A stretch of DNA of 64,000 bases from Limnochorda sp. L945t (GTDB lineage Bacteria; Bacillota; Limnochordia; Limnochordales; Geochordaceae): positions 3,193,722 through 3,257,721 of the forward strand of contig NZ_CP141615.1 of assembly GCF_035593305.1 (NCBI RefSeq), in the 5' to 3' direction. Under the pieces are notes generated by a model. It searched no databases. It saw only the letters and a list, made by a program, of their open reading frames with translations, and had not been told where the DNA came from. Position 1 is the stretch's first letter, and every line of letters starts with the position of its first letter. Below are positions 13,087 through 29,214 of the stretch, piece after piece. Both the position numbers and the translations under genes were made by a program.

Positions 13087-13165
13087 TCGCCGCCCGCCCA
13101 TCGCCTCTATCACTCGAGCCGCGTTTCGAGCTTGGAAGTACGGGTAGGCGTGGTACGGCGCGCGA

Positions 13166-13181
13166 TGGTACTATAGTACCA
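13166..13181. repeat. Perfect 16-bp palindrome, candidate operator
   Basis: TGGTACTATAGTACCA is its own reverse complement. It contains the decamer ACTATAGTAC, which recurs at 27384-27393 in front of the XRE-TPR regulator gene. It stands out as AT-rich in a GC-rich setting, as expected for a protein-binding site. Confidence 0.55.
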
Positions 13182-13399
13182 CACCAAAACGGCCTGTCCC
13201 TCAACAAAGTAGCAGAATGGCACAGGCGTTCGGTTGACATCCATGCACAGCTTTGGTACTTTTGGTACACCCACTGGGGTTAAGCGAGTAGCGCTGATGG
13301 GAGAGGCCTGACGTCGACGGCCTGAGAGTGGAGTGACCTGGCCGATTCGCCACGCGTAGAGCACAACCGAGACAAGGGAAGAGCCGAGGTGGATGACGG

Positions 13400-14734
13400 G
13401 TGTCGGAGTTGCCCGAGCATCCGAACCCGATGGACACGACGTTGGTCAACCTGGCGGCGGCCTCGGATAGCCCTGGGCCGCTGCGCCGGTATGCTACGGT
13501 GGCCGCCAAGGCCACCGATGCGCTTTCCGGGCAACCCGACTACTTGCAGGCCGTCTTCCTGGCGGCCCTGATGTCGCCCGTCTTCGCAGGCGCCAGCCCG
13601 GGTCCGGCCGAGCCGGGGTCGCTCCGCCCGCACCCGAATGGACGCCACGCGCCGGCCGGTCGAGCGAACGGCCGGCGCATCCCGCCGATACGCGGGGCGC
13701 TGCGGGAACGGGCCCGCCGTTGGTTACTCCCCGAGGAGCTGCTCCCTCCACCCGAAAGCCGGTTGAACGGGCTCGAGTTTTCCGGGACCTCCCCTGCCGG
13801 ATGGGCGCTCCTCGGGGCCGCTGCCGCCCGCCGCCGAGGCGCACCGGCCGACGATGTCGCCATCGTCGGCCTCGCCTCGGGGCGTTGGGGGGCCATCGTC
13901 CGCCAGGACGGGGCCCTGGTTTGGCTGGAGGGCCCCAGCGTCCGGCAGGCCGAGGGTCCGAGGTTACGGGGTGGGCAACGGGACAGTCTTCGCGTCGCGT
14001 TCAACGACGCCGGGTGCTGGACTTCCGCACGGCAGGGGCCGCGCTCCGGCGTTCGGCCGGCGGTCCGGCCTCGCACGCGGGCCGCTTCGCCGTCGTTCGA
14101 CATGGGCAAGCTCCTGCGCAGCCTGGCGCCGGTGGGCCGCCAGTACCGGGATCCCCTGGACTGCCGCGCGCTCACCACCGGCGAGGCGCTACGCCGTGAA
14201 GTCTTCGCCCGGGCGATGGACGCGCCGGGTTCGGTCTACACGCTGGCGCTCTATGCCCACCAGACGCTGCTCGTCCACCGTCCCGAGGCGTATGCCCTTG
14301 CCTCGGTCATGAGCCCCACCATCGAACGGCTGGCCCGGCGCCTGGGCGGCGTGGAAGGGGTCCTGGCGTTCGTGCGCCGGCACGTCTCACCCGGTTCGCT
14401 GTTCCCTGAGCCGGACCGCGTCATGCTGGCGCAGCAGGTCCTCGAACACGGCCTCGCCCGGCCGTCGGATGCCGCGCTCCTCATCTTCTCGTTGCTCCAC
14501 TGGCAAGGATACCCGGCCCGCGTCGTCCGCACCACGCGCGGCATGTACGTCGCCGCCCGGGACCATCGGGGCACCCGGGTGATCGACGCGTCGCGCCTGG
14601 CCCTTTGTGATCGCCCCGAGGGCGTCCCGGTCATCTCCTTCGATGCGGAGCGCCAGTACGGCTACCGTGACGCCTGGCAGCTGCCCGAGGCGCTGTCGAT
14701 GCCGCCCGAGCCGGCAGGCGTGACGGTGGCGTAG
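13400..14734 (+). CDS. Protein of unknown function with a degenerate transglutaminase-like C-terminal domain
   Basis: A 444-residue protein starting with GTG at 13400 behind GAGGTGGA. I do not recognise the whole. Residues 1-230 are Pro/Arg/Gly rich and probably partly disordered. From about residue 235 (MGKLLRSLAPVGRQYRDPLDCRAL) it is well folded. The segment LARPSDAALLIFSLLHWQGYPARVVRTTRGMYVAARDHRGTRVIDAS has the spacing of a transglutaminase-like core, but Ser stands at the usual catalytic Cys and the His is missing. It would therefore be a binding or structural domain. It is a single-gene unit under its own palindrome-rich promoter. Confidence 0.5.
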   Translation: MSELPEHPNPMDTTLVNLAAASDSPGPLRRYATVAAKATDALSGQPDYLQAVFLAALMSPVFAGASPGPAEPGSLRPHPNGRHAPAGRANGRRIPPIRGALRERARRWLLPEELLPPPESRLNGLEFSGTSPAGWALLGAAAARRRGAPADDVAIVGLASGRWGAIVRQDGALVWLEGPSVRQAEGPRLRGGQRDSLRVAFNDAGCWTSARQGPRSGVRPAVRPRTRAASPSFDMGKLLRSLAPVGRQYRDPLDCRALTTGEALRREVFARAMDAPGSVYTLALYAHQTLLVHRPEAYALASVMSPTIERLARRLGGVEGVLAFVRRHVSPGSLFPEPDRVMLAQQVLEHGLARPSDAALLIFSLLHWQGYPARVVRTTRGMYVAARDHRGTRVIDASRLALCDRPEGVPVISFDAERQYGYRDAWQLPEALSMPPEPAGVTVA

Positions 14735-21900: not shown

Positions 21901-22716
21901 TTACGAGTGCTGTTCGTGCTCTTGCGTGCCGAAGCGGCGGAGCATGACCCGTTCCAGGAGGGCCACGGTCGCGTAGAGCAGCACGGAGAGCCCGATCAGC
22001 AGGGCGAGCGAGGCCATGACGAGGTTCATGTCGAACACCTGCCCGCCGTACACGATCAGGTACCCGAGCCCCCGCCCGCCGGCCAGGAACTCGCCGGTGA
22101 CCGCGCCCACCAGCGCCAGGCCCACGTTGACCTTGAGCGCGCCGATGATGGCCGGCACCGCCGATGGCACGATCAGCATGCGAAAGATCTGCCCGCGCCG
22201 CGCTCCCAGCGACCTCAACAGCTGGACCCTGGCCGGATCCGTCTCCACGAAGGCCCCCAACACGACCACCACGGCCACGACGACCGTGATGGCGATGGCC
22301 ATGGCGATCACCGACTGCACGTTGGTGCCGAGCCAGACGATGAAGAGGGGGCCCAGGGCCACCTTCGGGATCGCGTTGAAGACGACCAGGTAAGGTTCGA
22401 GCACCCGGGCGAGGTACGGCCACCACCACAGGGCGGCCGCGATGGCGACCCCGAGAGCGGTGCCTGCCACGAAGCCGGCTGCAGAGGCCAGCGCCGTGCT
22501 CGCCAGGTGTACCCAGAGGTGCCCCTGGGAGGCAAGCTGCAGGATGGCGCCGGCGGCGGCGGAAGGCCGGCTCACCAGGAATGCAGAAACCCATCCCTGG
22601 TCGGCGGCCAGCTCCCAGCCCCCGAGCAACAGCGCCAGCAGGGCGGCCTGCCCTGCCGCTGCGGCCAGGCGGGCCCGTCGCTGCGCCTTGACGTATCGGC
22701 GATGAGCGGCGGTCAT
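21901..22716 (-). CDS. ABC transporter permease, NitT/TauT type
   Basis: A 271-residue permease with an N-terminal membrane segment, GLLLGGWELAADQGWV-like, and the family pattern FNAIPKVALGPLFIVWLG, ending the core with GEFLAGGRGLGYLIVYG. The EAA-type loop is LLRSLGARRGQIFRMLIVPSAVPAIIGALK. The ATG at 22716 overlaps the stop of the ATPase gene (ATGA) and follows GGAGGT. Family members import nitrate, sulfonates, pyrimidines or riboflavin precursors. It works with the ATPase and binding protein just upstream on the minus strand. Confidence 0.88.
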   Translation of the reverse strand: MTAAHRRYVKAQRRARLAAAAGQAALLALLLGGWELAADQGWVSAFLVSRPSAAAGAILQLASQGHLWVHLASTALASAAGFVAGTALGVAIAAALWWWPYLARVLEPYLVVFNAIPKVALGPLFIVWLGTNVQSVIAMAIAITVVVAVVVVLGAFVETDPARVQLLRSLGARRGQIFRMLIVPSAVPAIIGALKVNVGLALVGAVTGEFLAGGRGLGYLIVYGGQVFDMNLVMASLALLIGLSVLLYATVALLERVMLRRFGTQEHEQHS

Positions 22717-23540
22717 GCGTGGACCTCCAGGTCGTTCCAGATGGCCGAGAAGTAGTCGGAATAGGCAGCCGACCGGCGGGCCTCCAGGGGCGACAGGCGG
22801 TCGGCCCCGGCGCCCAGGTCGATGACGTAGTTGGCCTTGACCCGGGCCGGGCGGTGCGTCAGGACCACCACCCGATCGCACAGGGCGATGGCCTCGCCGA
22901 TGTCGTGGGTGACGAGCAGCACGGTGGCGCCCCGAGGCCGCAACGCCCTCACCAGTTCCTCCTCGAGCAACAGCCGGGTCTGCCCGTCCACGGCAGAGAG
23001 GGGCTCGTCGAGCAGCACCACCCGCGGATCCAGGGCCAGGGTTCGCACGAGAGCCGCCCGCTGGCGCATCCCTCCCGAGAGCTCCCTGGGCAACCGCCGC
23101 TCGAAGCCGGCCAGGCCCGATACCCTCAACATCTGCTTGACCCGCTCCACGGCCTGGGGCGTACGGGCCCCCCGGACGTCGAGCCCCAGGAGCGCGTTGT
23201 CCAGCACCGTGCGCCACTCGAGCAGGCAGTCCTGCTGGAGCATGTAGCCGACGTCAGGCCGGGGGCCTCGGACAGACTCCCCGTCGATCCGCACTTCGCC
23301 GTGGTCGGGAGCCAGGAGCCCTGCTACGATGGAGAAGAGGGTGCTCTTTCCGCATCCGCTCGGGCCCACGATCCCGACCCACTCGCCGGGAGCGGCCTCG
23401 AGCGAGACGCCGGCGATGGCCCGCGTCTCGCCCCGGTGGTTGTGGTAGGTATAGGAGACGTCTTCGACCGACACCCGGCCTGCCGACTGCCCCACCTGCT
23501 GCTCCGCCGGGCGGATGGTCGTCCTGTGCATCGGTACCAC
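22713..23540 (-). CDS. ABC transporter ATP-binding protein, NitT/TauT type
   Basis: A 275-residue nucleotide-binding subunit. Walker A is GPSGCGKSTL, the Q-loop sits in GYMLQQDCLLEWRTV, the signature is LSGGMRQRAAL, Walker B is VVLLDEPLSAVD and the switch His is in LLVTHDIGEA. GTG at 23540 or ATG at 23531 could be the start; CAGGTGG suits the latter. It powers the importer formed with the permease downstream and the binding protein upstream. Confidence 0.93.
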   Translation of the reverse strand: MVPMHRTTIRPAEQQVGQSAGRVSVEDVSYTYHNHRGETRAIAGVSLEAAPGEWVGIVGPSGCGKSTLFSIVAGLLAPDHGEVRIDGESVRGPRPDVGYMLQQDCLLEWRTVLDNALLGLDVRGARTPQAVERVKQMLRVSGLAGFERRLPRELSGGMRQRAALVRTLALDPRVVLLDEPLSAVDGQTRLLLEEELVRALRPRGATVLLVTHDIGEAIALCDRVVVLTHRPARVKANYVIDLGAGADRLSPLEARRSAAYSDYFSAIWNDLEVHA

Positions 23541-23544
23541 CTGC

Positions 23545-24612
23545 TCACGACGACGGCGTGAGTTGGGCCACGGCGCGTTCGGCGAAGCGGTTGGTCATGA
23601 GCGTGTCGAAGGGTACCCGGCTCTTCAGTTCGCCGGCTGCCTGGATGACCTCCAGGAGGTGGTCGAATCCCTTGCGGGAGATGACCGGGGTCGTCTTCCA
23701 GGTACGCTGGTCCTTGTAGCGCTGCAAGGAGCGTTCGAGCACCGAACGATCCATGCCCGGGAAGAAGGGTGCGACCACCTGAGCGATCTCGGGGATGGAG
23801 TGGCTCGCGACCCACAGTTGGCCCCGGTAGATGGCGTTGGTGAAACGCTGGATGATGTCCGGATGCTGCTGGATGAAGCTCTTGCGGGCGTGGTAGACGG
23901 TGTAGGTGATCTCGCCTCCCTCGACCCCCAGCGAGGCGACGATCTGGCCGATCCCGCGCTGCTCCATGGCGGTCATGGTCGGTTCGAACTGGGCGATATA
24001 GTCGCCCATGCCGCCCTCGAAGGCGCCGGGGGCCGCCTCGTAGGCCAGGTGCGTGATGATCTGGACGTCTTTGTGGGGGTCGATGCCGTGCTGGCGCAAG
24101 ACCCACTCCAGCACCATCTCGGGCACGCCTCCCTTGCGCCCCCCGATGATGGTCTTGCCCCGCACGTCCGTCCAACGAAACTGCCCCGTCGGGTGCCGGG
24201 CCACCAGGAAGGAGCCGTCCGTCTGCGTGAGCTGCGCGAAGCCCACCGCGTAGTCCTGGGCGCCCCGCTGGTACACGTACACGGCCGCCTCCGGGCCGAA
24301 GAAGCCGATGTCCGCCGACCCCGACAGCAGGGCCGCCATGCCCTTGTCGGCGCCCTGTGCGGTGGCCAGCTTCACCTCGAGCCCCTCTTGCTCGAAAAAC
24401 CCCTTTGCCAGCGCCACGTACTGGGGCGCATAGAAGACGGAACGTGCGACCTCCGACAGCCGCACCACCGTCAACGGGCGTGACGGCGACCCTGCAGCGG
24501 CGTGGACGGCCCTCGAACCCATCACGAGACCAAGGATGGCCAGGGCGGCCACGATCCGGGCGAGCATGCCGACCTGCCGCGGGCGGCGCCCCGGCGACAG
24601 CCTGCCTCTCAC
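23545..24612 (-). CDS. ABC transporter substrate-binding protein, NMT1/THI5/SsuA type
   Basis: A 355-residue exported protein. GTG at 24612 is placed six bases after GGGGGAA; a longer frame to 24657 has no site. The signal segment ARIVAALAILGLVMGSRAVHA precedes the mature start. The motif FYAPQYVALAKGFFEQEGLEVKLATAQGADKGMAALLSGSADIGFFGPEA is the hallmark of NMT1/THI5-like receptors (thiamine pyrimidine, sulfonate, nitrate). Substrate is uncertain: a pyrimidine precursor or an organic acid would both fit. It stops four bases before the ATPase start. Confidence 0.85.
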   Translation of the reverse strand: MRGRLSPGRRPRQVGMLARIVAALAILGLVMGSRAVHAAAGSPSRPLTVVRLSEVARSVFYAPQYVALAKGFFEQEGLEVKLATAQGADKGMAALLSGSADIGFFGPEAAVYVYQRGAQDYAVGFAQLTQTDGSFLVARHPTGQFRWTDVRGKTIIGGRKGGVPEMVLEWVLRQHGIDPHKDVQIITHLAYEAAPGAFEGGMGDYIAQFEPTMTAMEQRGIGQIVASLGVEGGEITYTVYHARKSFIQQHPDIIQRFTNAIYRGQLWVASHSIPEIAQVVAPFFPGMDRSVLERSLQRYKDQRTWKTTPVISRKGFDHLLEVIQAAGELKSRVPFDTLMTNRFAERAVAQLTPSS

Positions 24613-24751
24613 GACGCATTCCCCCAACCGGCCGGCGAGCGGCCTGTGCGCATGCACCGGGGTGGGTGGCTCCCAGGAGCGGCGTCCTGGGCCCGGCGCA
24701 CCCCCATGCTACGCCTGGGGACGGGAGAGAGGTGAATGGTGGACGGCGGGG

Positions 24752-25669
24752 CTAGGAGCCGGCGCGGTGGCGGCCCTCCTCGGCAAGCCCCCGGTCGAAC
24801 CGCTCGTACTCCTCGTAGCCTATGAGGTCGTACAGCTCCCGGCGGGTCTGCATGCGATCCAGCAAATCCGCCTGGGTGCCGCGCTCCCGGATCGCCACCA
24901 GGACCTCCTCTACCGCACGTGCGGCCACCCGCAGCGTGCTCACCGGGAAGACGACCATCTTGTAGCCCATCGCCCGGAACTGCTCCACGCTCAGGTAGGG
25001 GGTCTTGCCCCACTCGGTCATGTTGGCGAGCAACGGCGCCGGGACCTGCCGGGCGAAGGTCCGGAACTCCTCCTCGCTCTCGAGGGCCTCGGGGAAGATC
25101 ACGTCCGCCCCCGCCTCCAGGTAGAGGCGGGCCCGTCGCACCGCTTCGCTCAACCCGTGGGTGGCCCTGGCGTCGGTCCGGGCCACGATCAGGGCCTCTC
25201 GGCGGACCCTGGCGGCCGCCGCCACCTTGGCGACCATCTCTTCGGCCGCCACCACGGACTTGCCGCTCAGGTGGCCGCACTTCTTGGGCATCTCCTGATC
25301 CTCGATCTGGATCGCAGCCGCCCCCGCCTCCTCGAGCTCCCGCACCGCCGCGGCCACGTTGAGCGCCTCTCCGAAGCCGGTGTCCGCGTCCACGACGATG
25401 GGAAGCCCGGTGGCGCGAAAGAGCTGCCGCACCGCCTGGCTCAGCTCCGTCAGCGTGAACAACCCGAGGTCGGGCAGCCCCATGCTGGCCGAGAAGGCGG
25501 CACCCGAGAAATAGAGGGCCCGGAACCCCACCTTGCGCGCGATCAGCCCCACCAGCGGGTTGAACGCCCCCGGCGCCACCACGATGGGCTCCCCTTCGAG
25601 GAGCCTTCGTAACACGGTGCCCGGGTGCTCGGTGCCGGGCCGCTCCAGCACCCACGCAGGACCTGCCAC
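24752..25669 (-). CDS. 2-methylisocitrate lyase / PEP mutase family lyase (PrpB-like)
   Basis: A 305-residue enzyme of the isocitrate lyase/PEP mutase superfamily. VAPGAFNPLVGLIARKVGFRALYFSGAAFSASMGLPDLG, the metal-binding VDADTGFGEALNV, and the catalytic KKCGHLSGK loop (Cys base) match 2-methylisocitrate lyase. GTG at 25669 has AAGGAGG eight bases before it. The reaction gives pyruvate and succinate from 2-methylisocitrate. Other methylcitrate cycle genes are not visible, so oxaloacetate or 2,3-dimethylmalate lyase activity remains possible. The neighbouring tricarboxylate importer suggests use of imported citrate-like acids. Confidence 0.8.
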   Translation of the reverse strand: MAGPAWVLERPGTEHPGTVLRRLLEGEPIVVAPGAFNPLVGLIARKVGFRALYFSGAAFSASMGLPDLGLFTLTELSQAVRQLFRATGLPIVVDADTGFGEALNVAAAVRELEEAGAAAIQIEDQEMPKKCGHLSGKSVVAAEEMVAKVAAAARVRREALIVARTDARATHGLSEAVRRARLYLEAGADVIFPEALESEEEFRTFARQVPAPLLANMTEWGKTPYLSVEQFRAMGYKMVVFPVSTLRVAARAVEEVLVAIRERGTQADLLDRMQTRRELYDLIGYEEYERFDRGLAEEGRHRAGS

Positions 25670-25692
25670 GCCTGAACCCTCCTTGCCCGCTC

Positions 25693-25710
25693 GCACGGTC
25701 TTCTCCGTGC
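25693..25710. repeat. Short inverted repeat upstream of the lyase gene
   Basis: GCACGG (25693-25698) and CCGTGC (25705-25710) with a six-base loop, just ahead of the lyase ribosome site on the minus strand. It could be an operator or mRNA hairpin. A second stem GCCGTCG/CGACGGC lies at 25818-25824 and 25829-25835 in the same gap. Nothing else is seen in 25670-25922. Confidence 0.3.
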
Positions 25711-25922
25711 ACGTCAGATGCGCAAGAGCTCACCCGGCCGGCGCAGGTCATCCTGCTGCTCCGGCTGTATCACCCACCGTATCGCCGCGCGAAAGGCCAC
25801 TCCACTGGGGTCAGCACGCCGTCGGGGCCGACGGCCGCGGCGTACTCGGCCGGCAGCCCGGCGGAGCAGTCGCTCAGGCTTTAGCACCTGGGCAAGGGGT
25901 TACCTCCCCGGTGCGGCGACGC

Positions 25923-27353
25923 TCATTTCCGCGCGGCGCCGTGGGGCTCCTCGTGGCTTGCGGTTTCTGTTACGCCTTGCGCGGGCACGACCGGCCCGGT
26001 GAGGAGGTACTTCGCCAGCGAGGGTGGACGCAAGAGGTTCATGGCGGCCTTACGGTAGAGTTCCGCCGCCCGGACATGCTCGCCCCGCTTCGCCAGCAGG
26101 TCCGCGTACTCGAGCTGCAACTTAGCGAGCTCCGCGTCCAGCTCCAGCTGCTCCATGAGTTGCAAGGCCGTGTCGTAGTGCGAGGCGGCTTCGTTCAGTT
26201 CCGACATGACCGCCAGCACCCGGCCCAGGTGCCAGTGGGCCCGGGCCTTGTCGCCGGGGCGCTCGTGTTCCTCGGCCAGGGCAATGGCCATGTATGCATG
26301 CCGGAGCGCGTCCTCCCGCTGCCCCATCTTGGCGTAGCACCAGCCGAGCTCCATGTGGTTGTAGGCGAGCAGACGCACGTCGCCAAGAGCCTCTGTGGAT
26401 CCGAGGCTCTTGGTAAACGACTCGATCGCCTCTCGCCAACGTCCTAGTTCCTCGTATGCGAGTCCTATGTTGTGTTGTGCCCTGTTCACTTCGATAGGGT
26501 ACCGCATGCGCATAGCGATGTTGAGGGCCTCCTGGAAGTGCTCGAGAGCGACCGTTGCTTGACCACCGTCGAGAAGAGCCAGGCCGAGGTTGACGAGTGC
26601 TGAAACCACATATCGCTCTTCGAGTTGCTGGGCGATGACCCGAGCTTGCTCGAGATACGTGACCGCCTCCTGGAGATGCCCCACGTGCCGGGCAAGGGTT
26701 CCGACGTGCAACAGTACCTCGTATCGGGTAAAACTGTCCCCCTTCGCCGCCTCCGCGGCTGCCAAGGACTGGTGGGCATACACGTATGCGCTGTTCAGGT
26801 GGTCCTCAAGGTACTCGAGATACGACCGCGCCAACATGGCCTGAACCCATTCCGCCCCGGGAGTTGAACCAGCGAGCGCATGGAACGCCGAGGAGAGGGC
26901 CGCACGTGCTTCATCGAACCTGTCGGCCCGGGCGAGGATGCGAGCCAGAGTCAGCCACCCTTTCGCTATCAGCGGGGCACGACCTAGATGTGAAGCCTTC
27001 TCGATGGCGACTCTCGCGGCCTCCTCTGCCCTCCCGATGTTTCCCGCCGCCCACTGCTGCGAGGCATCCTGCAACGCAACCTGGACCTCTTCCTCCCCGG
27101 GGAGTTGCACGGCCGTATCCGCTGACTCGGTGTCACCGGCGATGAAGTACGTCACCGGAACGCCAAAGAAGGAGGCGAGCCTCTCAAGCACCGATTTGGT
27201 CGGGTTAGTGGCTTTTCCCGATCTCAGGCGCCACACGTAGGATACAGACAATTCCGTAGCCTGGGCTACTTGATCGAGCGTCCACCGACCACCGTCGGGG
27301 CGCCTCGCCGTCTCGAAGAGCCTCTGCAGTTTTTTCGCCACGCTGCGATCCAT
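25923..27353 (-). CDS. XRE-type HTH regulator with TPR repeats, RRNPP-like receptor candidate
   Basis: A 476-residue cytoplasmic regulator. The ATG at 27353 has GGAGGT seven bases upstream. Residues about 20-70 (RWTLDQVAQATELSVSYVWRL, SGKATNPTKSVLERLASFFGVP) form an XRE helix-turn-helix. Residues about 85-440 are tandem helical pairs with TPR spacing, for example AHQSLAAAEAAKGDSFTRY, AVTYLEQARVIAQQLEERY, ALEHFQEALNIAMRMRY, AIESFTKSLGSTEALGDVR and ALRHAYMAIALAEEHERPG. HTH plus TPR is the architecture of PlcR/NprR-type peptide receptors. A small exported-peptide gene is divergent 180 bases away, and a palindrome lies between them. The peptide-sensing role is inference; a non-peptide TPR regulator is the alternative. 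Confidence 0.75.
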   Translation of the reverse strand: MDRSVAKKLQRLFETARRPDGGRWTLDQVAQATELSVSYVWRLRSGKATNPTKSVLERLASFFGVPVTYFIAGDTESADTAVQLPGEEEVQVALQDASQQWAAGNIGRAEEAARVAIEKASHLGRAPLIAKGWLTLARILARADRFDEARAALSSAFHALAGSTPGAEWVQAMLARSYLEYLEDHLNSAYVYAHQSLAAAEAAKGDSFTRYEVLLHVGTLARHVGHLQEAVTYLEQARVIAQQLEERYVVSALVNLGLALLDGGQATVALEHFQEALNIAMRMRYPIEVNRAQHNIGLAYEELGRWREAIESFTKSLGSTEALGDVRLLAYNHMELGWCYAKMGQREDALRHAYMAIALAEEHERPGDKARAHWHLGRVLAVMSELNEAASHYDTALQLMEQLELDAELAKLQLEYADLLAKRGEHVRAAELYRKAAMNLLRPPSLAKYLLTGPVVPAQGVTETASHEEPHGAARK

Positions 27354-27385
27354 GAAATAGACCTCCTCTGAGAGTAGGCTGAGAC

Positions 27386-27397
27386 TATAGTACTATA
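27386..27397. promoter_or_regulatory. Palindromic candidate operator in the divergent regulator/peptide intergenic region
   Basis: TATAGTACTATA is a perfect 12-bp palindrome 33 bases upstream of the regulator ATG and 137 bases from the peptide gene. The overlapping decamer ACTATAGTAC (27384-27393) also occurs inside the palindrome at 13166-13181. It probably marks an autoregulatory site of the HTH protein and may also overlap a -10 element (TATAGT on the minus strand). Confidence 0.5.
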
Positions 27398-27447
27398 CAA
27401 CCCCCGGGCTGGTGCGCATCGGGCCTCCACAACGAACAGAGGTTCCC

Positions 27448-27476
27448 TTGACTGGTGTGCGCTTATAGTGATATGC
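27448..27476 (+). promoter_or_regulatory. Weak promoter candidate for the small peptide gene
   Basis: TTGACT (27448-27453) is a good -35 hexamer. Seventeen bases later ATATGC (27471-27476) is a poor -10. TATAGT at 27464-27469 is a better hexamer but too close. A promoter needing an activator would look like this. Confidence 0.35.
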
Positions 27477-27533
27477 CAATTTCAGACACAGCGTGACGCT
27501 ATGGCATAAACTCATAGAAAGAGGGGCTCAGGG

Positions 27534-27695
27534 ATGAGACGAATAGCGGCAGCTCTGTTGCTGGCGGTGTTGCTTGTCTTGGCATGGGTGCCGTCGTTCA
27601 CGCTGGGCGTTGCAGGCGACGGGTATGCGTCTGCTGCTTCATCCAGGATAGCGCCGATGGCGCAGGATCCAGGCTCCGACTCATGGCCATTGTGA
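27534..27695 (+). CDS. Small exported peptide precursor, candidate signalling pheromone
   Basis: A 53-residue gene starting at ATG 27534 with AAAGAGGGG eight bases upstream and ending at TGA 27693-27695. The N-terminus has two Arg (MRRIAAALLL) followed by an uninterrupted hydrophobic core (AVLLVLAWVPSF), a classic Sec signal peptide. After a possible cleavage region (GYASA-ASS) a short hydrophilic tail, RIAPMAQDPGSDSWPL, forms the C-terminus. Size and plan match Phr/PapR/NprX-type pheromone precursors whose C-terminal residues become the signal. It is divergent from the TPR regulator and convergent with a radical SAM gene. A RiPP precursor or a small structural peptide cannot be excluded. Confidence 0.65.
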   Translation: MRRIAAALLLAVLLVLAWVPSFTLGVAGDGYASAASSRIAPMAQDPGSDSWPL

Positions 27696-27832
27696 AGAGG
27701 TAGGGCGCGGTTCAGGGGTATCTCCGAGTCGGAGCGGCAGGGCGAAGCTACCCTATAGCTCGTGGCCGGAAACCGCAGAGAGCGGTGGTGCAGTTCGTCG
27801 TTTTCCCGGGCGCGAGTGGCGAGGGCGTCCGG

Positions 27833-29044
27833 CTAGGCTGGGCTCGCGGCAAGGTACGGATGGAGTTCGTCCTGAAACGGAAACGAGCCGGGCTCGTAGG
27901 TGCACCACGGCTCCTCGGCCAGCGCGTTGCCCGTGGCGCCGAAGGCTCGGGAGCGCGACCCGCCGCATACCGCCCGGAATTCGCACCGCCCGCAGCGGCC
28001 CTCCAGGCGATCGGGGTCGCGCAGCGAGCGAAAGAGCGGCGATTGGCGGTAGATCTCGGTCAGCGGCCGCTCGCGCACGCTGCCTGCCGCCAGAGGAAGG
28101 AAGCCGCTCGGGTAGACGACGCCCAGGTGCGAGATGAAGACGAACCCGCGCCCGGCGTTGACGTCCAGGGGCGTGCGTCGCATGGGCGAGCGCCCGTCGA
28201 AGTCGACGTCCGGGGCGACGGCCTCCAGGCGCCTGCGCAGCTCCCGGTAGGTCTCCCCGAGCACCAGCGCATCGCTTGGGGGGATGCCGCGCCGCTCCAG
28301 GATTTGCCGTTGGATGACCACCCGCCGGAAATGATGACCCTCCGTCGTCTTGAGCGAGACCACCTTGTCGGCATCATACAGGAAGTGCAACACGTCCTCG
28401 AACTGCTCGGGCGTGATGGCGTCGAGGGCGCGCCCCCGCCCCGTGCGCACCAGGAAGAAGAGGCTCCAGGTCATGGCGCCAAGCTCGCGCACGAGGCGCA
28501 GGATCTCGGGCAGATCGTATAGGTTGTGCGGCGTCACGGTGGTGTTGATCTGCACCTTGAAGCCCAGCTGCCGGGCCGCCCGCCACCCGGCCAGTGTCCA
28601 GCCGTAGACGCCCTCCACCCGCCGAAATCCGTCGTGAATCTCTGCCGTGGACCCGTCGAGGCTCAGCGAAAGCGCCACAGCCCCGGCTTCCCGCAGGCGG
28701 GCCAGGTTGTCGTACGTGAGCGACGGCGTACCGGACGGCGAGACGGAGACCGGTAGCCCGATCCTGGCGCCGTACTCTACCAGCTCGAAGAGGTCGGGCC
28801 GCTTGAACGGGTCGCCGCCGGTCATCACGAAAAGCGGTGGTGGCGGCCCGAACGAGGCGACCTGGTCCATGAGCGCCCGCGCCTCTGCGCCGTCCAGCTC
28901 CCGCGGGTGGCGCAGTGGTTGGGCCTCGGCCCGGCAGTGCTTGCAGGCCAGGTCGCACGCCTGCGTGACCTCCCAGATGACGATGAACGGCCGGTCGTTG
29001 AGGTCGTATCGGGCATGACGCACCGCAGTCGCCGGCTTGGGCAA
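27833..29044 (-). CDS. Radical SAM/SPASM protein
   Basis: A 403-residue enzyme. TTG at 29044 is chosen because AAGGAG lies nine bases upstream and the protein then enters directly RYDLNDRPFIVIWEVTQACDLACKHC, with the CxxxCxxC cluster motif. FVMTGGDPF and LSLSLDGS are further radical SAM strands. The C-terminus holds a SPASM-type auxiliary cluster region: CGRCEFRAVCGGSRSRAF, then a Cys in EEPWC. It resembles the uncharacterised TIGR04053 group and heme d1/AhbD-like proteins. The substrate is unknown. It is divergent from an SDR gene and convergent with the small peptide gene, so peptide modification is possible but not shown. Confidence 0.8.
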   Translation of the reverse strand: MPKPATAVRHARYDLNDRPFIVIWEVTQACDLACKHCRAEAQPLRHPRELDGAEARALMDQVASFGPPPPLFVMTGGDPFKRPDLFELVEYGARIGLPVSVSPSGTPSLTYDNLARLREAGAVALSLSLDGSTAEIHDGFRRVEGVYGWTLAGWRAARQLGFKVQINTTVTPHNLYDLPEILRLVRELGAMTWSLFFLVRTGRGRALDAITPEQFEDVLHFLYDADKVVSLKTTEGHHFRRVVIQRQILERRGIPPSDALVLGETYRELRRRLEAVAPDVDFDGRSPMRRTPLDVNAGRGFVFISHLGVVYPSGFLPLAAGSVRERPLTEIYRQSPLFRSLRDPDRLEGRCGRCEFRAVCGGSRSRAFGATGNALAEEPWCTYEPGSFPFQDELHPYLAASPA

Positions 29045-29214
29045 CCCCCATCGCTCCTTACCACCGACGGCCGCGTACCCTGCGCTTCCCGGGCACGTTT
29101 CCCGTCGACGGTGATGTGCACCGTTTGCATTATCCCTCACGCCGGGCAGGAGGTCACGGGACGAACATCCCGAATCCGGCTGCTACGAACGGCCCTGGAA
29201 AGCGGAGGGATACC

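Follow-up and report, generated by a model that had tools for sequence, protein, structure and literature searches.

A regulator-peptide gene pair conserved in Limnochordia resembles an RRNPP-type signalling module and has a candidate output gene

In the stretch of Limnochorda sp. L945t DNA analyzed here (the window, 64,000 nucleotides), a gene encoding a regulator with an N-terminal XRE helix-turn-helix (HTH) and a long TPR array lies 180 bp from, and divergent to, a short gene whose product is proposed to be an exported propeptide (Table 1). The first-pass annotation had read the two genes as an RRNPP-type pair in a high-GC Bacillota lineage where such a system seemed undescribed, and the coordinates that it gave for the regulator, for the short open reading frame (ORF) and for the gap between them were exact. 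The genome of the window is a single contig of 3,313,549 bases with a G+C content of 69%. Convergent with the peptide gene is a radical SAM/SPASM gene of the TIGR04053 family (27833-29140), which is heme-synthesis-like.

Table 1. Features of the regulator-peptide locus and of the candidate target gene, in window coordinates
Feature	Position	Strand	Basis or content
Regulator, 476 aa, proposed peptide receptor/transcription factor	25923..27353	(-)	XRE helix-turn-helix and nine predicted TPRs
HTH domain, residues 1-72, EspR-like	27138..27353	(-)	Profile matches, three-homologue alignment
TPR array, residues 87-440	26034..27095	(-)	18 helices, predicted as nine TPRs
Operator-like box GACTATAGTACTATA in regulator promoter	27383..27397	(.)	Contains palindromes ACTATAGT and TATAGTACTATA
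Putative peptide promoter	27448..27477	(+)	-35 TTGACT; TATAGTG in spacer, 27464-27470; weak -10 near 27471-27477
Small exported-peptide gene, proposed propeptide, 53 aa, starts MRR	27534..27695	(+)	ORF and homology
Hydrophobic core of propeptide, residues 4-19, after MRR	27543..27590	(+)	Hydropathy
C-terminal tail RIAPMAQDPGSDSWPL, proposed to hold mature signal	27645..27692	(+)	DPG and penultimate Pro invariant in three propeptides
Proposed remote operator: second box copy within the perfect 16-bp palindrome TGGTACTATAGTACCA	13166..13181	(.)	Box search
Proposed target gene, 444 aa	13400..14734	(+)	Second box upstream; homologue adjoins peptide gene in G065

The HTH and the TPR-like array named in the first-pass annotation were both recovered with Pfam profiles, HTH_31 (E 1.4e-7) and HTH_3 (E 1e-5) in the N-terminal part and TPR_12 (E 1e-23) as a further match in the regulator. 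The HTH aligned over residues 4 to 72 with EspR-like regulators (E about 7e-6), was 39 to 46% identical to HTH proteins of Streptomyces and Saccharopolyspora, and was invariant at 38 of 72 residues across the three regulator homologues considered below. AlphaFold2, run on the single sequence without an alignment, gave a pLDDT of 71 and a pTM of 0.45 for the whole regulator and, at moderate confidence, a pLDDT of 84 and a pTM of 0.58 for the TPR domain alone, in which 18 helices form the nine predicted TPRs. The fold and sequence matches of the TPR region were generic (LGN, designed TPRs, Rap, NprR and PlcR), with eukaryotic LGN outranking Rap, NprR and PlcR in both sequence and fold; structure therefore does not decide family membership, and the predicted structure was dropped as proof of the RRNPP family. 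The curated RNPP_C and AimR models did not match the regulator, and AimR was absent from the structural match lists, an absence that is not evidence of difference. Within the array, TPR6 to TPR8 were the most conserved (41 to 69% invariant residues per helix versus 12 to 29% in TPR1 to TPR3), a pattern that would fit a ligand surface and that could also mark a dimer surface.

After the initial methionine, the proposed propeptide has two arginines, then a strongly hydrophobic core and finally a tail of 32 residues. Among the 257 ORFs of 30 to 80 residues in the window, this gene was the only one to pass a signal-like rule (at least two K/R, no D/E and a hydropathy that averages 2.2 or more over 14 residues), which bears out the Arg-Arg start and strong core described at first reading. 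The ribosome site had been called good; a putative site, GAGGGG, is present and ends about 9 bases 5' of the ATG, and its quality is fair, not excellent. The GC3 of the ORF was 0.63, which is weak as coding evidence. A chance short ORF was ruled out by the homologues found in the same position at two further loci, together with the short-ORF baseline.

Those homologues came from a search of 73 genomes of the class, in which regulator homologues (E <= 1e-20) were confined to G065, a single-contig genome from another genus of the same family that holds two copies (54% and 50% identity) at loci of 70.2% G+C. Both copies face a divergent ORF of 52 residues that is homologous to the peptide gene, begins with basic and then hydrophobic residues and is conserved in its C-terminal half, the arrangement anticipated for relatives in the first-pass annotation (a divergent ORF of 40 to 70 residues with a conserved C-terminus). 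When the peptide was used as the query in a tblastn-type search of the 73 genomes, the only strong matches outside the window were these two ORFs (E 1.5e-6 and 3.9e-4). The three propeptides, MRRIAAALLLAVLLVLAWVPSFTLGVAGDGYASAASSRIAPMAQDPGSDSWPL, MRRTLAIVALLLGLVLASVPAVASGGLTGGYALAGGGRVVTTADPGLPIWPR and (V)KRLVATVLLAVVLVLGLVGTGTLWIDDGTASAAAGRIVPLRDPGGEGPFPF, all have a basic start and a 14-residue mean hydropathy of 2.9 to 3.2, and their tails share an R, D-P-G and the penultimate P, with an aromatic residue and Pro at the C-terminus. The tails alone, outside the hydrophobic core, beat shuffled sequences in the three pairwise comparisons (p < 1e-4, < 1e-4 and 0.0013), and frame-0 alignments scored 87, 96 and 57 versus 52, 52 and 41 in the best other frame, which indicated conservation beyond shared hydrophobicity. 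Moreover, third codon positions were the most divergent between the peptide ORFs, and DPG occurred in the last 15 residues of 29 of the 3,442 short ORFs in the DNA examined versus all three propeptides. Every one of the three loci (three pairs in two genomes) combines a regulator with a divergent short ORF of this homologous set, and frame 0 was kept throughout; a regulator lacking its short ORF and a drifting frame were the two outcomes that the first-pass annotation had listed against its proposal. With the pair at all three loci, the tail conserved and the frame kept, the sequences support its reading of an RRNPP-type pair.

The neighbors of the pair differ between loci. Copy a of G065 lies beside an Sbt_1 transporter gene and a GltX-like gene; the neighbors of copy b are a ClC-like gene, an ABC transporter and the radical SAM gene that is also in the window; the gene pair is thus kept together in differing gene settings. 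As judged from sequence, the regulator and the peptide gene constitute a unit of two genes that is conserved in bacteria of the hot deep subsurface. The same-species genome G063 (a MAG of 8 contigs) is without the whole 22713-29140 block, that is, the regulator pair, the radical SAM gene, the ABC transporter and a methylisocitrate-lyase-like gene, and gave weak ABC ATPase matches only, which makes the pair an accessory module. In G064, which belongs to the same genus as G065, the ABC genes are present and the regulator is absent. The G+C content of the block is 62 to 63%, versus 66 to 71% in its surroundings.

In wider searches, 398 genomes sampled evenly across the phylum gave no further homologue at E 1e-30, and the genome of the window held no paralogue. 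No relatives were found in IMG/VR and phage records gave no match, plasmid records gave only TPR-only or HTH-only matches, and in a scan of further genome contigs all matches were generic TPR proteins belonging to other phyla. At 12 loci that encode other TPR proteins in these two genera, and where the picking of host ORFs was rough, no further pair of an HTH-TPR protein and a short ORF was seen.

The perfect palindrome that had been noted in the gap is TATAGTACTATA, 12 bp at 27386-27397. A palindrome of this length is mildly unusual in such a gap, with about 0.05 to 0.1 expected (an estimate from base composition); part of it, ACTATAGTA, is conserved across genera and is therefore better evidence than the palindrome itself, and the three regulator promoters share GACTATAGTA without a single difference. 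Since the candidate box overlaps the likely -10 element of the regulator, its conservation could be promoter conservation, and repression of the regulator's own promoter would be the simplest guess. On the other side of the gap, a TTGAC -35 block precedes the peptide gene at all three loci, and TATAGTG stands in the spacer in the window and at copy b; the copy-a peptide promoter has a degenerate box only.

A genome-wide search for the box was carried out with the query GACTATAGTAYYAYA and up to two mismatches. In the genome of the window, sites with at most one mismatch were limited to the regulator promoter and 13169-13183, where 0.033 would be expected by chance in 3.3 Mb. The two-mismatch sites that were inspected (G000 1599883 and G065 480642) are coding sequence and stand at the expected background of 1.2. 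The second copy falls within a perfect 16-bp palindrome; with five in the window, such palindromes are hardly rare, so the shared core, not the palindrome, is the evidence. TGGTAC/GTACCA occurs five times in 118 bp (13151-13268) around this second box and the promoter of the ORF that follows it, and TGGTAC is over-represented across the window (34 versus 11 expected), partly perhaps because of Trp-Tyr codons.

The ORF downstream of the second box, 13400-14734, has a single homologue in the 73 genomes, L021:6962-8062 at copy b of G065, which lies on the same strand as the copy-b peptide gene and starts about 77 bases past the stop codon of that gene (56% identity over 167 aa, E 7e-55). Two independent lines, the search for the box and the position of the homologue beside the peptide gene in another genus, lead to the same candidate target, and this ORF is likely, by such evidence, to be an output of the regulator. 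Only two genomes of the class have the gene, and both also hold the regulator-peptide pair; target and pair are about 13 kb apart in the window, so their shared presence and absence is partly linkage. No Pfam family matched the product, and its G065 homologue gave a weak Transglut_core match (P0006, E 0.0042) below the curated cut-off.

The ranges used by RRNPP_detector are a receptor of 250 to 500 aa with TPRs, a propeptide of 10 to 100 aa and a gap of -60 to 400 bp (PMC10075063). Apart from SignalP, the genomic features in that scheme are all found here, in a TPR protein of 476 aa with an N-terminal HTH and a 53-aa product encoded at 180 bp. An HTH with nine TPRs is the architecture of the NprR, AloR and AimR groups, which the regulator also matches in size (PMC12700828). 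The pair resembles NprR-NprX, AloR-AloP (subfamily 08) and AimR-AimP in this predicted architecture, and nine-TPR RRNPPA systems in having an adjoining short propeptide gene with a basic-hydrophobic start. Its tails carry the DPG motif that one paper reports to be widespread in the peptides of AimR and of Paenibacillaceae subfamily 08 (PMC12700828). The pair here is divergent, in contrast to the Alo systems, which are operons with the receptor gene ahead of the peptide gene (PMC7425212); unlike nine-TPR RRNPPA systems in general, it has an EspR-like HTH of the actinobacterial type, matches no curated RRNPP model, has a longer stretch of tail after DPG, with (W/F)P at its end, and is hosted by diderm Limnochordia.

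The regulator also resembles PlcR of PlcR-PapR as an HTH-TPR transcription factor, but has nine predicted TPRs rather than five and did not match RNPP_C (PF18768). VIA-align to 3u3w (PlcR) covered 189 residues spanning model residues 2 to 305 with a Z of 15.0 and an rmsd of 18.4, and this high rmsd makes the match a loose, domain-wise one. Rap-Phr systems likewise combine a peptide-binding TPR superhelix, predicted in the present case, with an adjoining exported propeptide, and Rap chains were among the structural matches; Rap, however, is without an HTH, acts on response regulators and has a different gene order. The likeness to EspR-like XRE regulators of actinobacteria is limited to the HTH, as those have neither a TPR array nor a known peptide partner, and the EspR-like HTH may reflect an independent HTH-TPR assembly. 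Because no curated RRNPP profile matched and the fold matches were generic, the sequences give better support to the proposal that the pair works like an RRNPP system than to descent from one.

Other loci hold comparable arrangements. At L110:964-2473 and L111:1007-2790, HTH-TPR proteins of 436 and 455 aa, the first of which matches RNPP_C, each adjoin a signal-like short ORF, one co-directional (64 aa) and one divergent (47 aa, ending DDAEWP). In other families of the phylum, L112 (1276-1422 (-) and 1450-3486 (-)) and L121 (laid out alike, minus strand) encode distant HTH-TPR proteins of 678 and 705 aa, each followed by a signal-like ORF of 46 to 48 aa, and the two ORFs share a QWPT tail (MLKRLICVLMVFMLLLGGMALGQGTSNRYQMAGDQWPTGGGSTGGSIG and MKRLVYLLLAFALFFSVTVISRETTGTAIDQYVVSEEQWPTNGHSG). 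Receptors of this length lie above the 500-aa maximum of RRNPP_detector, so pairs of this kind may have been overlooked.

The gene pair, its shared ancestry, its co-occurrence in three loci, the tail, the box and the link to the target can be read directly from the sequences, and their best reading is that of an RRNPP-like receptor-propeptide module that would form a new subfamily in diderm Limnochordia. We consider it probable that the locus is a two-gene RRNPP-like peptide signalling module with a candidate output gene. Export, processing, re-import, binding, the direction of regulation and density dependence are proposed by analogy with known systems. The propeptide would be exported through Sec by means of its MRR/hydrophobic N-terminus and then trimmed, after which a short fragment from the C-terminal half, within RIAPMAQDPGSDSWPL, would be re-imported by an oligopeptide ABC transporter; the 17 matches to SBP_bac_5 (PF00496, an oligopeptide-type binding protein) in the genome of the window are generic and have no tie to the peptide. 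The re-imported peptide would bind in the concave groove formed by the regulator's TPRs, probably at TPR5 to TPR8, and alter the action of the HTH on ACTATAGTA-type boxes at the regulator's own promoter, at the peptide promoter and upstream of the proposed target, such that the level of peptide would set expression of all three genes.

A point against this mechanism is that an exported peptide would also have to face the outer membrane. Limnochordia are a deep-branching two-membrane lineage with an outer membrane (PMC11456536), which favors a private sensor in which the peptide does not leave the periplasm, is trimmed there before re-import, and reports on its own cell's secretion or protease status and not on density. 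A dedicated exporter was seen at none of the three loci, which also counts in its favor; porins may, however, let small peptides through, and we regard this explanation as unlikely. The version of it that retains the RRNPP form in two-membrane cells, with a periplasmic peptide that is trimmed and re-imported, a read-out of export or envelope state rather than density, and a hitherto undescribed target protein (13400-14734) driven through the ACTATAGTA box, is in our estimate unlikely.

Divergent regulator-effector pairs are common, and the small gene could encode a bacteriocin-like, membrane-active or envelope peptide that is merely controlled by the regulator, with the TPRs sensing something else or binding a protein partner and the peptide not being the ligand. 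The tail is indeed short and contains W/F and Pro, and peptide-receptor binding is here argued by analogy. An ORF of 53 residues whose conserved tail is hydrophilic, and which always stands beside a long TPR array, is nevertheless better explained by a ligand; no immunity or transporter gene is common to the three loci, and TPR6 to TPR8 are the most conserved part of the array, as would be expected of a binding surface. We judge an effector to be distinctly improbable. Still less can be said for a RiPP precursor matured by the radical SAM enzyme or by the transglutaminase-like product of the proposed target gene, an explanation that we consider very doubtful. Transglutaminase-fold proteases do occur in some RiPP pathways, a radical SAM/SPASM gene lies next to the peptide gene and another about 6 kb off at copy b, and there is the weak Transglut_core match. 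Yet the radical SAM protein passes the TIGR04053 cut-off with heme-synthesis enzymes, not peptide maturases, as next-best models, copy a has no radical SAM gene, the start of the peptide is of the export type and not a hydrophilic leader, and the transglutaminase match falls below its curated cut-off with no catalytic Cys evident by eye.

RRNPPA receptors have been described almost wholly in Bacilli, and a few come from Clostridia (PMC9765709, PMC12700828). In agreement with the suggestion that the system is undescribed in this lineage, a literature search found no paper tying Limnochordia or Limnochorda to an RRNPP-type system. Such peptide signalling in two-membrane cells is poorly known. 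Anoxybacter fermentans carries subfamily 17 (PMC12700828) and, as the Halanaerobiales are diderm, this bears on any claim to a first two-membrane host. The pair raises the question of how an exported peptide signals across or within a two-membrane envelope, and, given the box and the target gene, the module can be tested without genetic work in the host. That DPG is common to the peptides read by phage AimR, to those of Paenibacillaceae and to the peptides described here would be notable if ancestral. A receptor-propeptide unit in Limnochordia would bear on the age of signalling by HTH-nine-TPR proteins and on whether it predates the loss of the outer membrane.
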